From NCBI GenBank assembly GCA_017618115.1, contig JAFZUX010000016.1, positions 1 through 42,756 of the forward strand: 42,756 bases of DNA. The letters run 5' to 3'. The notes under the pieces are model-generated. The model had not been told where the DNA came from, did not search any database, and saw nothing but the letters and a program-made list of their open reading frames with translations. Source of the DNA: Bacteroidales bacterium (GTDB taxonomy: Bacteria; Bacteroidota; Bacteroidia; Bacteroidales; UBA932). Below are positions 21,907 through 31,868 of this stretch, piece by piece. The translations under genes and the position numbers were made by a program. The first letter of the stretch is position 1, and each line of letters begins with the position of its first letter.

Positions 21907-21911
21907 CAGTG

Positions 21912-23840
21912 ATGGCTTCCAGGAGTTTAACACGGTTAATTAACGGCGCCGCCCTCACCTTTGGAAAGAAGTTTTTAAAGGATGTTGAGCGGAGCAAAAG
22001 CCATGCGCCCGAGCTTCAGCACGCCCTCTTTAACCATCTGATTTCCTGCGGGAAAGAGACCAAGTACGGGGTAGAAAAAAACTTCTCCGCCATCAAAGAT
22101 TTTGAAGATTTCAGAAAGAGGGTTCCCCTTTGCCGTTACAACGATTTTGTTCCCTACATAGAGCGCCTCCGCCGCGGAGAAGACTACGTTCTTTGGAACC
22201 AGAAGGTGCGTTGGTTTGCCAAATCCAGCGGCACCTCTTCAGACAAGAGCAAGTATATTCCCATCACGCCGGACTCACTCTATATCAACCACTTTGGAGG
22301 AATGAAGCGGATGCTCTTCAACTACGTCCATCTTCATCCCGATAGTAAAATCTTCACCACCAAGGCCCTCACTTTGGGCGGAAGCGTTCAGCCCGATTCA
22401 CTGGCGCAGAACGGATTGAACATTTTTAATGGAGACCTCTCCGCTGTGATGCTCAAGAACTCTCCAAAGATGGCGGAACTTGTAAGAACGCCAAGCCGGC
22501 AAACCGCTCTAATTGCGGAGTTTGAGAAGAAGGTTATGCGGATTTGCAAAGAGTGCACAACCCAAAACGTCTCCAACTTTTCCGGAGTTCCAAGCTGGAA
22601 TCTGGTTTTAATGAACAAGGTTTTGGAGTACACTCAAAAGAGCAACCTGCTTGAGGTATGGCCTCATCTTGAGCTCTTTATGCATGGAGGCATCTCCTTT
22701 GCTCCGTACCGTGAAGCCTATAAAAAACTCATTCCATCTGAAAACATGCACTACCTTGAAAACTACAACGCCTCAGAGGGTTACTTTGCATTCCAGGATG
22801 AGTTTCCAAAAGACCCGCTTTCAGACAGTTCGCAGGCACAGATGCTGCTTACCGTAAACAACGGCATCTTCTACGAGTTCATTCCGTTTAAGGAGATGAC
22901 CGGTGACAACGAGACGGATGCTCTCAAAAGCGTTCCGCTTGAGGGAGTTAAGACGGGCATAGATTACGCCATAGTCATCACTACCTGCGGCGGCCTGTGG
23001 AGATATATGCCGGAAGACTGCGTGCGCTTCACCTCCGTAAACCCTTACAGGATAATAGTTTCCGGCAGAACCAAACTCTACATCAACGCCTTTGGAGAGG
23101 AACTGATGATAGACAACGCAGAGCGCGCCCTCCAGAACACCTGCAGGAAGTTCAACCTCCAAGTCACAGACTTCACCGTTGCCCCGGAGTTCATGGGGAT
23201 TGCCGCGGGAGCAGGCATGGCCCGCTCCGGCAGTGGTAGCAGCACGTCCGGCTCCTGCAGTTCGGGTGCCATGTCCGGCAGTCCCGGCGCCGCGTCCGGC
23301 AATCCCGGAGCCGCGTCCAACAGTCCCGGCGCCGCATCCAGCAGTCCCGGAGCCGCGTCCAAGTCCAGCCGCACACCCTCCGCTAACAACCTCAGCAACA
23401 GCCCTTACGGCAGCCAGTCCGTTTCCAGCAGCTCAGACTCCGCATCAGTTTCCGGTAGCATATTCGCCGCGGAGTCAGGCATGGGCAACGGAACATCCGG
23501 CGGGAGCGCACCGCAACGCTTCACGCTTCAGCAAGGCTGCCACATTTGGGCCATAGAGTTCTGTGATCCGCAGCGCAATCCAAACAGTCCAACATTTGAT
23601 CCTGCTGCCGTAGAAGAGTTCGCAGAAGCGCTGGACCGTGAACTCACAACCATCAACTCAGATTATGAAGCCAAGCGCAGCCCAGGCTCCACAATGCAGC
23701 GCCTCAAGATCTTGCCGCTTGCCCCCGGCACCTTCCTCAAGTGGATGCAGCAGAGAGGCAAGCTCGGCGGCCAGAACAAAGTTCCCCGCCTCTGGAAAGA
23801 CCAGACATTCATTAACCAACTGAAGGACATTAAGTTATGA
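21912..23840 (+). CDS. GH3-family acyl-adenylate/amide-forming protein with low-complexity insertion
   Basis: A 642-residue member of the GH3 family, ANL-type enzymes that adenylate a carboxylate and join it to an amino acid; the bacterial substrates are unknown. The ATP-site motif FAKSSGTSSDKSKYIP (about 97-112), the FMHGGISFAPYREAY segment and YNASEGYFAFQD are clear. Between about residues 434 and 530, where relatives have a short loop before GCHIWAIEF, there is a Ser/Gly/Ala/Pro-rich insertion containing four 7-residue repeats. Usual length is near 500, so the insertion explains the excess. The ATG at 21912 is preferred over GTG at 21909 because it keeps the five-base distance from TATTTTTG. 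Confidence 0.82.
   Translation: MASRSLTRLINGAALTFGKKFLKDVERSKSHAPELQHALFNHLISCGKETKYGVEKNFSAIKDFEDFRKRVPLCRYNDFVPYIERLRRGEDYVLWNQKVRWFAKSSGTSSDKSKYIPITPDSLYINHFGGMKRMLFNYVHLHPDSKIFTTKALTLGGSVQPDSLAQNGLNIFNGDLSAVMLKNSPKMAELVRTPSRQTALIAEFEKKVMRICKECTTQNVSNFSGVPSWNLVLMNKVLEYTQKSNLLEVWPHLELFMHGGISFAPYREAYKKLIPSENMHYLENYNASEGYFAFQDEFPKDPLSDSSQAQMLLTVNNGIFYEFIPFKEMTGDNETDALKSVPLEGVKTGIDYAIVITTCGGLWRYMPEDCVRFTSVNPYRIIVSGRTKLYINAFGEELMIDNAERALQNTCRKFNLQVTDFTVAPEFMGIAAGAGMARSGSGSSTSGSCSSGAMSGSPGAASGNPGAASNSPGAASSSPGAASKSSRTPSANNLSNSPYGSQSVSSSSDSASVSGSIFAAESGMGNGTSGGSAPQRFTLQQGCHIWAIEFCDPQRNPNSPTFDPAAVEEFAEALDRELTTINSDYEAKRSPGSTMQRLKILPLAPGTFLKWMQQRGKLGGQNKVPRLWKDQTFINQLKDIKL
23277..23360 (+). repeat. 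21-bp in-frame tandem repeat in the GH3 gene (4 units)
   Basis: Four consecutive 21-bp units (starting 23277, 23298, 23319, 23340) encode [G/N/S][S/N]PGAAS. They differ mainly at third codon positions and at the first codon. The units lie in a longer Ser/Gly/Ala-rich stretch (about 23210-23500). A replication-slippage origin is likely. Confidence 0.85.
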
Positions 23841-23988: not shown

Positions 23989-25395
23989 ATGATTATAAAT
24001 GATTTTAAGAATAGAATTTTTGGGATAAAGAGCGTGGAGGAATTCAACGCCCTTGCTCTGCAAGCCTTTGAATACCAGCGTGAAAACTGTGCCGTCTATA
24101 GGCAGTACTTGGAGCTCACAGGCCGCCTTAACCTCACACCAAAGAGCCCGTTTGAGATTCCCTTCCTCCCCATCCGCCTCTTCAAAACCCAGGACATTGT
24201 AACCCCCCTCTCCACCTCAAGCCAGAAGATTCAGTCTACGTGCTCTTCATGCACAACAACAGCTCCAAGTGCTGAAGGTGTCCCTGTTTTACGGACACCT
24301 CAAGCAAAAAAGGCTCAAAACGCTCAAGGTGTCCCTGTTTTCCGGACACCTCAAGCACCCAACACCTCATCAAGTGTTCCCGGTGTCCCTGATTTCCGGA
24401 CACTAGGCACAAAAAAGGCCCAAAACGTTCCCGGTGTCCCTATTTTCCGGACACCTGGCACACCCATAACTTTCACCTCCTCCGCTACAACGGGAATGGT
24501 GCCCTCCCACCACATAGTTCAGGACATCAGCATCTATGAGCAAAGTTTCCGCAGTGCCTTCCATCACTTCTACGGAGAAGACTTCAACCTCTTGGCACTG
24601 CTCCCATCCTATCTGGAGAGAGAAGGCTCCTCCCTGGTCTATATGGCAGACTCCCTCATCAAAGAGGCCCAACAAAAAGGCAACACCGGAGGCTTCTTCC
24701 TCTACAACCACAGTGAACTCCTTAATACCCTCCAAGCGTTATCCTCTGGGATCCAGGAAAATAACAGCGAGGGCAGAAAGACTATTCTCTTAGGAGTCAG
24801 CTTTGCTCTTCTGGATTTTGCAGCGTTCATCAAAGAACAAATACCAAACAAAGATGAACGTAGAGCAATCTTCAAAGATGTCATCATAATGGAAACAGGT
24901 GGAATGAAAGGCCGCGGCAAAGAGCTATCCCGCAGCGAGTTACACAGCACACTTTCAGAGGCCTTTGCAACCTCCGCCATCCACTCCGAATACGGAATGT
25001 GCGAACTCCTCTCTCAGGCCTACTCCTTTCCTATCAATAACGGAAACACAAAAGTAGCAGCCACAGACAACAAAGCCCACATCCAACAAAACGATATTTC
25101 CGTCACAGGAATCTTTTTCACGCCTCCATGGATGCAGGTTTTACTCAGAGACTTACAAGACCCCTTCAAGATTCTGAGTGCCGCTCCAAACAAAGTGTCT
25201 GCAAAAACTCTTTCTGGAGGCATCAACATCATAGATCTTGCAAACATCGGTTCCTGCTGCTTCATTGAAACAGAAGACCGCGGAACACTCTATCCATCAG
25301 CTATTACCGCAGCCTACAGCATCCACCCTCCATTCACCGTAGACAGCCGCATCAAGAACTCCGAACTCCGCGGCTGCAACATGCTAATTGAGTAA
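23989..25395 (+). CDS. LuxE-type acyl-protein synthetase with palindrome-encoded insertion
   Basis: A 468-residue protein of the LuxE/acyl-protein synthetase family (ANL-like), which activates an acyl group as an adenylate. N-terminal FEIPFLPIRLFKTQDIV (about 55-71) and ITFTSSATTGMVPSHHIV (ATP loop, about 161-178) are normally almost adjacent; here about 90 residues separate them, including four GVPxFRTP units encoded by palindromic DNA. The ATP loop reads SATTG where SGTTG is usual. Downstream motifs (FHHFYGEDFNLLALLPSYLER, GGMKGRGKELSR, HSEYGMCELLSQAY) are intact. It lies 148 bases after the GH3 gene, another adenylating enzyme, so a shared pathway is plausible but unproven. No frameshift is seen. 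Confidence 0.78.
   Translation: MIINDFKNRIFGIKSVEEFNALALQAFEYQRENCAVYRQYLELTGRLNLTPKSPFEIPFLPIRLFKTQDIVTPLSTSSQKIQSTCSSCTTTAPSAEGVPVLRTPQAKKAQNAQGVPVFRTPQAPNTSSSVPGVPDFRTLGTKKAQNVPGVPIFRTPGTPITFTSSATTGMVPSHHIVQDISIYEQSFRSAFHHFYGEDFNLLALLPSYLEREGSSLVYMADSLIKEAQQKGNTGGFFLYNHSELLNTLQALSSGIQENNSEGRKTILLGVSFALLDFAAFIKEQIPNKDERRAIFKDVIIMETGGMKGRGKELSRSELHSTLSEAFATSAIHSEYGMCELLSQAYSFPINNGNTKVAATDNKAHIQQNDISVTGIFFTPPWMQVLLRDLQDPFKILSAAPNKVSAKTLSGGINIIDLANIGSCCFIETEDRGTLYPSAITAAYSIHPPFTVDSRIKNSELRGCNMLIE
24277..24455 (+). repeat. four in-frame 23-bp palindromes within the LuxE-like gene
   Basis: Units at 24277-24299, 24328-24350, 24382-24404 and 24433-24455 each read GGTGTCC, a 9-base centre (CTGTTTTAC, CTGTTTTCC, CTGATTTCC, CTATTTTCC) and GGACAC[C/T]. 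Arms are 7-8 bp inverted repeats. Starts are 51, 54 and 51 bases apart, all multiples of three. Units 1 and 3 share their spacer (AAAAAAGGC[T/C]CAAAACG), and 2 and 4 share theirs (CACCCA), so the array looks like a duplicated 105-bp pair. Each unit encodes GVPxxRT. Confidence 0.92.
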
Positions 25396-29679: not shown

Positions 29680-30366
29680 ATGTTGCAGGACACCCTCCTT
29701 ATATCTGAAGATTCCATGCTTGTGGCGCAAGATAGCGTTGCCTTTGGCGGTTTGGGCGGGAGCAAGACCCTCTTCACCTCTGCAGAGGTAACTCCGTTTT
29801 GCGCCAAGTCCAAGGAGGTGGAGATTTTCAACCTTGTGGTGGTGGCGCTGCTTATCATCTGTTTCCTCGTTGCCACCCTCAGAATAGTTGGCGGAGTCCT
29901 TCACGCATGGAGTTCGCTCTTCTCTTCCAGGAAACAGCAGGAAATTGATTACGAACTGACCCTCAGGGGCTTAAGGCGAGAGGCAGCACTCTTTTGCACC
30001 ACCGTTGCACTCTTTGCCATCACCCCCTCACCGGTATCTTTTATCATCTCGATGGTTTGCTTCGTTCTCTTTTTTCTTCTTCGCGACGGTCTCTTCTCCC
30101 TTTTGGACTATGTTAACAACACCACCTGTTTCCGTTACATTGGAAGAAACAGCGCAAACTACCTCACGGTAGCCTCTTCCACAGCTATTATACTCCTGAT
30201 TTACAAGCCGTTACTTATTATGCTAGTAGTGGTATCCGTGCTCTTCTTCATAATGGAGGCCAGGGTGATTTTCAAAAACAAGTTTTCTCTTTTTTTCTAC
30301 ATTTTATATCTTTGCACCCTTGAAATTTTACCGGTGGCACTGATTGTAAAATTATTATTGAGATGA
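29680..30366 (+). CDS. DUF4271 membrane protein
   Basis: A 228-residue membrane protein with about six hydrophobic segments after a polar N-terminus (about 1-45). It resembles DUF4271 proteins, which in Bacteroidota usually precede hemD. The function is unknown. It starts one base after the SUI1 gene stop and overlaps the hemD ATG by four bases. The conserved pairing suggests a link with the haem pathway or the membrane, but that is inference. Confidence 0.75.
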   Translation: MLQDTLLISEDSMLVAQDSVAFGGLGGSKTLFTSAEVTPFCAKSKEVEIFNLVVVALLIICFLVATLRIVGGVLHAWSSLFSSRKQQEIDYELTLRGLRREAALFCTTVALFAITPSPVSFIISMVCFVLFFLLRDGLFSLLDYVNNTTCFRYIGRNSANYLTVASSTAIILLIYKPLLIMLVVVSVLFFIMEARVIFKNKFSLFFYILYLCTLEILPVALIVKLLLR

Positions 30367-31868
30367 AGATAGATAGAATTCTTATAGCTCAGCCGGGCGT
30401 TGCAAGTGCAAATCCTCACTATGCAAACCTCATCCACAAATACAACGTTAAGATAGACTTTAAGCCTTTCTTCAGCATGGTTCCTCTGAGTGTCAGAGAG
30501 TTCCGCGCACAGAAGGTTAACATCCCGGACTATACCGCAATAGTATTTACATCCAAGGGAACAATAGACGCCTTCTTTAAACTTTGTTTGGAGCAGAGAA
30601 TAAAGATTCCGGATTCTCAGAAGTATTTCTGCACATCCGAGAACATTTCATACTATCTGCAGAAGCACATCATCTACCGCAAGAGAAAGATTTTCTACGG
30701 AGACGGTACATTTGCTTCGGTAGTAAGACTTGCAAAGGCAGACAAGCATAAGGATGACAAGTTCCTGCTTGCTTCACCGGATCACATCTATCCGGAGTGG
30801 ATATCTATGTTCCAGGAGACCAAACTCAAGTTTGCCTCCGCAGTGGTTGCAAAGTTTGTAGATAATGACCTTAAGGATCTCAACCTTAATGACTATCAAA
30901 TCATTGCCTTCTACAACGCACTGGATATCACCTCTCTCAAGAATAACTTCCCTAACTACAAACCGGGAGAGACCAAGTTTGTGGCATTCGGTTCCGGTAT
31001 CCGCAAGGCTATGACAGAGGCCGGTTTGAACTATGCAATCGGAGGTCCAACCGCAGAGTTCCCGTCTCTGGCAAACGCCCTTGAGAAACTTATTGTTGAG
31101 CCGGACTTCAAACAGACCATAATGCCTGTAGAGAAGAAACCGGTTGCAGCACCAAAGGCTGCAGAAAAGCCGGCGCCTGCAAAACCAGCCGCTCCAAAAC
31201 CTGCTGAAAAGAAGCCGGTTGCAAAGCCTGAGGTTAAGAAAGCAGAGCCTGAAGTAAAGAAGGCGGAGCCAAAACCTGTTGTTAAAAAGGAAGTTGCAAA
31301 ACCTGCTACTAAGAAGCAAGTTACAAAGCCTGCTGTTAAAAAAGTTGTTGCTAAACCTGTGGCAAAGAAGGCGGTTCCTGCAAAGAAAAACGCACCAAAG
31401 CCTGTTGCAAAACCGGTAGTTAAGAAGGTTGCTCCAAAACCAACAGCTAAGAAGGCTGCAGTGAAACCTGCTGCTAAGAAGCAAGTTACAAAGCCTGCTG
31501 CTAAAAAAGTTGTTGCTAAACCTGCAGCAAAGAAAAGCACGCCTGTAAAGAAAAATGCTCCAAAGCCTGCAGCAAAAAAGAGCGTACCTGTAAAGAAAAA
31601 TGCGCCAAAGTCTGCTGCAAAAAAGAGCGTACCTGCAAAGAAGAACGCAGCAAAGCCTGCTGCAAAAAAGAGCGTTCCTGCAAAGAAAAATGCGCCAAAG
31701 TCTGCTGCAAAAAAGAGCGTACCTGTAAAGAAAAACGCTCCAAAGCAAGCGGCTAAAAAAGTTGCGGCTAAGAAAGCTATCGTGAAAAAGGCTGTCAAGA
31801 AGCAAGTTGCAAAGAAGGCCACTCCAAAGACAAAGAAACCCGTAGCAAAAAAGGCGGGTAAGAGATAA
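30363..31868 (+). CDS. hemD: uroporphyrinogen-III synthase with histone-H1-like tail
   Basis: A 501-residue protein. Residues 1-255 form a two-lobed HemD domain that cyclises hydroxymethylbilane to uroporphyrinogen III: LIAQPGVASANPHYA, the TSKGTIDAFF loop, FYNALDITSL and IGGPTAEFPSLANAL. Residues from about 258 to 501 are almost entirely Lys, Ala, Pro and Val, with KKxVAKP and KKSVPxKKNAPKxAA repeats, like eukaryotic histone H1 or Hc1-type proteins. HemD alone is near 250 residues, so the tail doubles it. It probably binds nucleic acid or acidic surfaces; this is inference. The ATG overlaps DUF4271. Confidence 0.88.
   Translation: MKIDRILIAQPGVASANPHYANLIHKYNVKIDFKPFFSMVPLSVREFRAQKVNIPDYTAIVFTSKGTIDAFFKLCLEQRIKIPDSQKYFCTSENISYYLQKHIIYRKRKIFYGDGTFASVVRLAKADKHKDDKFLLASPDHIYPEWISMFQETKLKFASAVVAKFVDNDLKDLNLNDYQIIAFYNALDITSLKNNFPNYKPGETKFVAFGSGIRKAMTEAGLNYAIGGPTAEFPSLANALEKLIVEPDFKQTIMPVEKKPVAAPKAAEKPAPAKPAAPKPAEKKPVAKPEVKKAEPEVKKAEPKPVVKKEVAKPATKKQVTKPAVKKVVAKPVAKKAVPAKKNAPKPVAKPVVKKVAPKPTAKKAAVKPAAKKQVTKPAAKKVVAKPAAKKSTPVKKNAPKPAAKKSVPVKKNAPKSAAKKSVPAKKNAAKPAAKKSVPAKKNAPKSAAKKSVPVKKNAPKQAAKKVAAKKAIVKKAVKKQVAKKATPKTKKPVAKKAGKR
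31530..31754 (+). repeat. 45-bp in-frame tandem repeat in the hemD tail (5 units)
   Basis: Five 45-bp units (starts 31530, 31575, 31620, 31665, 31710) encode KKS[T/V]P[V/A]KKNA[P/A]K[P/S/Q]AA. They differ by a few bases each, so copy number may change by slippage. Less regular KKxxxKPxx units precede them from about 31200. Confidence 0.88.

Follow-up and report, generated by a model that had tools for sequence, protein, structure and literature searches.

A probable RAYT-associated palindromic element lying in frame within enzyme genes of uncultured Bacteroidales

A LuxE-family gene of an uncultured Bacteroidales genome contains a tandem array of four short palindromes within its open reading frame. 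Related palindromes are dispersed over the same genome, mostly outside recognised genes, and adjoin a gene for a divergent RAYT, a relative of the HuH/Y1 transposases. On these grounds we consider it probable that the array is a RAYT-associated, REP-like palindromic element that entered a loop of the enzyme, was translated and was kept open. Coordinates without a contig name refer to the window, the whole stretch of 42,756 nucleotides that was analysed, and G000 denotes the genome of 1.85 Mb to which it belongs.

The array in the LuxE-family gene

The gene and the elements of the array are as follows.

23989..25395, + strand: LuxE-family (acyl-protein synthetase-like) gene carrying the array, an ORF of 468 aa
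24268..24463, + strand: in-frame palindromic array including its outer arms, with AGTG at 24268-24271
24277..24299, + strand: palindrome unit 1, loop CTGTTTTAC, translation GVPVLRTP
24328..24350, + strand: palindrome unit 2, loop CTGTTTTCC, translation GVPVFRTP
24382..24404, + strand: palindrome unit 3, loop CTGATTTCC, final base T, translation GVPDFRTL
24433..24455, + strand: palindrome unit 4, loop CTATTTTCC, translation GVPIFRTP
24472..24498, + strand: codons of FTSSATTGM, the conserved loop directly 3' of the array

An earlier, sequence-only reading had placed here, directly before a conserved loop of a LuxE-type protein, four in-frame palindromes, and this description stands: units of the form GGTGTCC-N9-GGACAC[C/T] occupy 24277-24455 in the frame of the ORF, spaced 51, 54 and 51 bases apart, and are followed directly by the FTSSATTGM loop. 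The stricter form given in that reading, GGTGTCC-N9-GGACACC, is exact in three of the four units, the third ending in GGACACT with one change. The duplication of two units with a shift of 105 bases, also proposed there, is recovered as 78% identity over 96 bases between 24266-24361 and 24371-24466. When up to three mismatches are allowed, these four palindromes are the only ones in the window (0, 0, 1 and 0 mismatches); at the same tolerance, shuffled windows (n=100) contain 0.92 matches on average and one in 100 attains four. Because such lax matching also scores in shuffles, the strength of the array lies in its exactness and tandem order. Its TRF score is 189. Other repeats were seen in the window as well: the upstream gene of the GH3 family (21909-23840) has another low-complexity insert, an in-frame 21-base tandem repeat of SPGAAS type at 23273-23362 that sits between the central and C-terminal domains, and strong 45/90-base tandem repeats (TRF 319 and 354) lie at 31221-31761, within the span of the ORF 30363-31868.

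Taken alone, the window protein found nothing at E <= 0.01 in either Pfam or the PDB, and in NCBIfam only a weak LuxE match (E 0.0029, 16.6 bits, cut-off 550). An alignment with eight array-free relatives (A2) was more informative: five of its nine members match Pfam LuxE (PF04443, best E 7e-9), and its profile matches the LuxE of PDB 7xc6 with E 1.6e-18. The latter protein has FTSSGTSG where the window protein has FTSSATTGM, and is devoid of the insert. Homologues were matched in 27 genomes of the genus, of which 26 were aligned (G035 was left out). The stretch from PIRLFK to FTSSATTGM, both included, comprises 80-110 residues with GVPxFRTP-like units in four of them (G000, G030, G019 and G026) and 29-60 residues without units in the other 22. 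The view that this enzyme normally lacks the insertion is borne out by this comparison, and the insertion is not a feature that all homologues share.

Dispersal of the palindrome within and among genomes

The motif is not confined to the LuxE gene. With up to two mismatches it gives 41 matches in G000 (backward control 3); inspection suggests that two of them, C18:202328 and C25:61472, are chance matches, and the other 39 are spread over 12 places. The exact shorter core GTGTCC-N7..12-GGACAC is also found 39 times, with a control of 0, these being not necessarily the same 39. Together with the presence or absence of the array among homologues, this dispersal supports the earlier proposal of a dispersed palindromic element that would tolerate being read through. 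As in REP elements, a short palindrome occurs in many dispersed copies, and these lie predominantly between genes: 31 of the 39 fall outside the two recognised carrier genes (four copies in LuxE and four in AroE), the ORF context being that of a script check at the fetched places rather than of a full annotation. Neighbouring copies are typically 52 bases apart. Three G000 contigs end at or near arrays: C24 and C26 inside one or just past it, C21 some 350 bases beyond.

The stem extends beyond the 23-bp palindrome and has two common forms, GTGCTTGA-GGTGTCC-N9-GGACACC-TC[AG]AGCAC and GTGTTCCC-[AG]GTGTCC-N9-GGACAC[CT]-GGGAACAC. Covariation is seen among 28 intergenic units of G000: five of the 15 pairs differ in both partners, and the covariation score of 0.212 compares with 0.135 for shuffles and no more than 0.071 after sliding. 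Of five measures, two (pairs changed on both sides and further pair types) went the opposite way, with 498 and 499 of 500 shuffles reaching or exceeding the observed value. Wobble pairs gave a null result for strand asymmetry (G-T versus A-C on the strand of the T-rich loop, 71 vs 52, p 0.10). Short and rich in A/T, the loops come up repeatedly, both inside one array and in different arrays (ctgttttcc many times). The regularity of the repeats and their 9-base loops might suggest a CRISPR- or TIGR-like array with the N9 loops as guides, but such short, A/T-rich and recurring loops, in arrays found at many scattered places and inside enzymes, make this reading extremely improbable.

Canonical REPs are described as having GT[AG]G at the foot of the hairpin (PMC6006769). 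At the corresponding positions -9 to -6 of 88 ends, from 44 arrays of four genomes in which either end could be read, AGTG was found 36 times, ACTG 12, GGTG 9 and AACG 8, besides others; GTAG, GTGG and CGTC occurred at none of these 88 ends, and by this measure the family is not canonical REP. AGTG stands at exactly one end in 30 of the 44 arrays, at both in 3 and at neither in 11 (raw counts, in which orthologous arrays are counted repeatedly), a hint that the element may be directional. A clean target site was not seen.

Among 148 genomes searched, including 39 of the genus with G000 among them, only four are rich in exact copies, namely G000 (39), G019 (30), G030 (13) and G026 (12), and the others have 0-2; backward controls in this search gave 0-8, and 39 in G134, one genome of another family. 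A covariance model was built from the 28 intergenic G000 units, so that the matches in G000 are partly by construction, and was applied to both strands, with 146 of up to 946 first-look candidates scored per genome. It matched at least 80 times in G000, 79 in G019, 38 in G030 and 32 in G026. Weaker matches number at least 22 in G028, and there are at least 7 matches in G011, at least 3 in G032 and at least 1 each in G018, G021 and G029; among the 146 candidates scored per genome, none was found in 29 of the 39 genus genomes. The counts for G011 are doubtful because one contig stretch (L252, G011:C8) is 100% identical to G030 (L253, G030:C3) over 11.3 kb, by either mis-binning or very recent transfer, and the palindrome matches at C8 were set aside.

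A scan of GTDB with a longer core, covering one genome per species and possibly omitting records of the window's own genome, picked out 63 stretches. Where these stand in tandem or have the outer arms of the family, they belong to uncultured Bacteroidales/Bacteroidia MAGs, some with ruminant names, among them RUG12750, RUG13987, Reindeer_2_mag_152 and RGIG7798. Stretches from Streptomyces, Frankia, Planctomycetota and other distant groups were judged by eye to be single chance matches and not members of the family. Five stretches in a viral collection with GAGGTGTCC-N9-GGACACCTC, whose surroundings by eye are unlike the family, were likewise rejected.

Units in other genes, reading frame and spacing

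In-frame units that are missing from homologues are also found in other conserved genes. AroE, matched in 38 of the 39 genus genomes and aligned for 18, has four units in G000 and one in G019, in the linker before VLV(V/I)GCGGAGK, the other 16 being free of units by eye. An AddB-like nuclease (named by analogy; Pfam PDDEXK_1) has one unit in G030, a net 87 bases relative to G000, and none in G000, G019 and G026. In the PrmC gene of G028 (Pfam PrmC_N), two related units, both model matches with starts 54 bases apart, precede KIFDVCTGSGC; the same linker is longer in G011, G032 and G027 (of 18 aligned), by eye a decayed copy. An outer-membrane barrel-like protein of SRR8387719_bin.86 (L109; Pfam 23.9 bits, below the cut-off of 27) probably holds in-frame units too. 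Arrays in L128, L137, L138, L082 and L080 are covered by ORFs for which Pfam gave no match at E <= 0.001, and these ORFs were left out of the gene count; L010 and L155 were likewise left out, the array there preceding the likely start codon. In LuxE, AroE and PrmC alike the insert precedes a nucleotide- or cofactor-binding loop, a spot at which it may do little harm.

Inserts of another kind were noticed in AroE: in both G000 (L012, 1047-2015) and G019 (L158, 1416-2615) the gene also contains an N-terminal insert rich in Ser, along with a tandem repeat of TKTETNSCS, the point where the G000 contig C21 breaks off. Such in-frame inserts of low complexity may be widespread in the clade.

The array might instead be an ordinary protein repeat, in which PxFRTP serves LuxE in structure or binding and is under selection, the palindrome in the DNA being a by-product. 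The array has indeed persisted in four species, and its dN/dS stays under 1 in each of four overlapping species pairs (0.66, 0.24, 0.48 and 0.80). These values exceed those of the rest of the gene (0.15, 0.21, 0.23 and 0.16) in all four pairs, however, so that constraint on the array appears relaxed, but not absent. The array is moreover missing from 22 of the 26 homologues, and the same DNA palindrome stands between genes and, within AroE (CPEIRDT) and the AddB-like gene (GVRKTGTP), in frames that both differ from that of LuxE. We regard a protein-level origin as very unlikely.

The spacing of the units differs between genic and intergenic arrays. Adjacent intergenic units in four genomes are 52 bases apart in 49 of 50 cases and 53 in the remaining one; the ten spacings within LuxE and AroE are 51 in six cases, 54 in two, and 53 and 52 in one each. 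Fisher's test gives p 7e-9, which overstates the difference, since the LuxE arrays of the four species are homologous and the ten genic spacings are not independent. Both four-unit genic arrays of G000 total 156 bases, as 51+54+51 and 51+53+52. Doublets in other Bacteroidales MAGs also have a period of 51, so that this period alone is no proof of frame keeping.

A second trace of the reading frame concerns the units of GCT type. All 17 such intergenic units of G000 read GCTTGA on the strand that LuxE uses; the two in LuxE read GCTGAA and GCTCAA instead, at the cost of two stem pairs, and are thereby without an in-frame TGA. Over four genomes the TGA is present in 19 of 32 intergenic GCT-type arms vs none of six in LuxE, or, without loops of equal A and T, in 18 of 29 vs none of six (p 0.008); the avoidance of TGA in LuxE is weaker over the four genomes than in G000 alone.

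These data also bear on a possible role at the RNA level, in which mRNA hairpins would have been placed in LuxE for regulation through attenuation, stability or termination. As RNA, the LuxE array folds strongly (z = -5.7 against 200 shuffles), and most copies of the family lie outside recognised genes, as such a role would allow. Against it, nothing between 23700 and 25500 matched Rfam at gathering scores, the genic copies hold the reading frame, and the outer arms in LuxE have lost pairs with the frame still open. A regulatory RNA is, in our judgement, quite unlikely.

RAYT genes and the origin of the palindromes

G000 has three IS200-type (Y1_Tnp) genes at E <= 0.001. The two RAYT genes considered here are the following.

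G000 C5:24401-25258: RAYT1, a divergent RAYT, HuH/Y1 transposase relative
G000 C19:128266-129126: RAYT2, a paralogue, about 50% identical to RAYT1

All 13 relatives in the alignment share the HuH motif NH[VI]H and the motif YV[QH]MN[SP][VI]AAN, whose tyrosine is, by analogy, the predicted catalytic residue; the subclasses with Bacteroidetes described in PMC6006769 have YIxNNP or YIH[QN]NP in its stead. All 13 also match the NCBIfam model of the REP-associated tyrosine transposase (REP_Tyr_transpos, NF047646), with the best E of 1.5e-12 for RAYT1. The scores lie below the cut-offs, at 47.6 for RAYT1 and 35.9 for RAYT2 with this model (cut-off 80) and at 22.0 and 19.1 with Pfam Y1_Tnp (cut-off 23), and a search of the PDB with the RAYT profile gave nothing at E <= 0.01.

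Among the 39 genus genomes, the only ones with relatives at least 80% identical to RAYT1 are G030 and G019, two palindrome-rich genomes; the next best relatives are at most 60% identical. At the 3' end of RAYT1 the nearest model match lies 16 bases away in G000, 8 in G019 and 61 in G030, as coordinate differences. G019 has further matches some 0.2 kb upstream of the gene, the only case on the 5' side within less than 0.3 kb. In G028, where the RAYT1 relative is 55% identical, related palindromes are found 32 bases from the 3' end and others about 1 kb upstream, and in G032 a weak match (E 0.012) stands 7 bases past the gene.

RAYT2 is accompanied by a different palindrome, AAAGTGTGCAAGGTG-N15-CACCTTGCACACTTT, located at its stop. 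In all three of G000, G019 and G030, AAGGTG-N15-CACCTT follows the last RAYT2 codon at 10-11 bases, and the gene is preceded at 2.3-3.3 kb by two copies facing the opposite way; in G000 a gene that by eye is radical-SAM-like stands in between. Among 12 genomes asked, CAAGGTG-N13..17-CACCTTG has 11 copies in G000, 7 in G019, 12 in G030 and a single one in G026; the two copies in G011 are at the doubtful contig, and the other seven genomes have none. A reversed-pattern control gave 0 in G000, G019 and G030. That two paralogues are each paired with a palindrome type of their own is the strongest indication that the RAYTs act on these palindromes. Since the four carrier species may belong to a single clade, and the RAYT2 loci of G000, G019 and G030 look orthologous, the co-occurrence of RAYTs and palindromes may represent few events.

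RAYT2 has hardly diverged between G000 and G030 (branch lengths 0.006-0.007; L247, L248 and L249), while RAYT1 is at 87% identity, which could reflect either stronger constraint or later transfer. Two more distant RAYT relatives of the genus have other palindromes nearby, L033 (G007) with TTGGGGAACA..TGTTCCCCAA as an array and L041 (G015) with GTTCAGATGC..GCATCTGAAC about 300 bases apart.

The palindromes might also have spread independently of the RAYT, by replication slippage, template switching or gene conversion, with the RAYT a bystander. Tandem 52-base copies and differences in copy number do suggest slippage within arrays, and G026, a genome 73% complete, carries palindromes without a close RAYT match. 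Yet at the 3' end of each of the two RAYT paralogues stands a palindrome type that matches it, and different genes have been struck in different species; we therefore judge spread without the RAYT unlikely. In the RAYT-associated scenario that we favour, the RAYT would presumably act as known RAYTs do, seeding copies by cutting palindromes in single-stranded form and joining them again. One insertion into the LuxE loop, probably before the four carrier species split, would have been followed by the rise of tandem copies within the array. The insert would then have been retained because its frame was open and the spacing of its units had moved from 52 to 51/54, presumably as a translated, nearly neutral linker that is tolerated, rather than as a functional domain.

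In several respects the system resembles the 'REPtrons' formed by REP or REPIN sequences and RAYT (TnpA_REP) genes, as portrayed in PMC2817692 and PMC6006769: short imperfect palindromes in multiple copies with covarying stems, mostly outside genes, adjoin a HuH/Y1 RAYT relative, and each RAYT paralogue has its own palindrome type. It differs from them in the absence of a GT[AG]G hairpin foot, with AGTG at 36 of 88 array ends, in direct tandem arrays with a 52-base period, and in the inverted copies around RAYT2, which are not immediate on the 5' side. REP lengths are given as 20-40 bases (PMC3733652) or 21-65 nt (PMC6006769). In the report that introduced RAYTs (Nunvar 2010, PMC2817692), those meeting its criteria came only from gammaproteobacteria; a later classification lists for Bacteroidetes a subclass 2.6 with atypical surrounding secondary structures, and describes in-frame REPs inside tnpA_REP genes of subclass 2.4 (Quentin 2018, PMC6006769).

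Palindromes within genes have precedents. Intragenic REPs, as set out by Di Nocera (2013, PMC3733652), lie within ORFs singly, as dimers or in groups, encode from 20-30 to 43-82 aa (43-82 when grouped) and include recombination and repair genes among their targets; that work also covers Rickettsia RPE-4 and RPE-6. The palindrome family and the host group differ here, and presence or absence across related species and an altered genic spacing are added. In Rickettsia, too, RPEs lie in frame within protein genes, and the sequence-only reading had likened the LuxE array to them in principle; with in-frame inserts in LuxE, AroE, the AddB-like gene and PrmC the likeness holds for the way in which the element works, and no kinship is claimed. 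To our knowledge, Rickettsia RPEs have no assigned transposase or mobilising enzyme. Intragenic REPs and Rickettsia RPEs are thus already published; what is new here is the branch of RAYTs, the frame adjustment and the tandem arrays of 52-base period whose foot is AGTG rather than GT[AG]G, and the best matches in the open-licence PMC literature contain no account of this palindrome family in rumen Bacteroidales.

A broader proposal, to which we give somewhat less than even chances, is that rumen Bacteroidales possess an unnamed RAYT branch in which each paralogue drives a lineage-specific palindrome family of its own, and that these families are still inserting into the loops of housekeeping enzymes, with tandem arrays tuned from a 52-base to a codon-compatible spacing. 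If so, these genomes would have an ongoing supply of new translated linkers with an identifiable enzyme behind it, such as RPEs are not known to have. Palindromes that have entered enzyme genes and left the frame intact point to one route by which new protein segments can arise. The question of how palindromic selfish DNA lives within protein genes, which dates from the Rickettsia RPEs, is here tied to a candidate enzyme, and with two paralogues, two palindrome types and species with and without the insertions, mobilisation, tolerance and frame adaptation each become testable.
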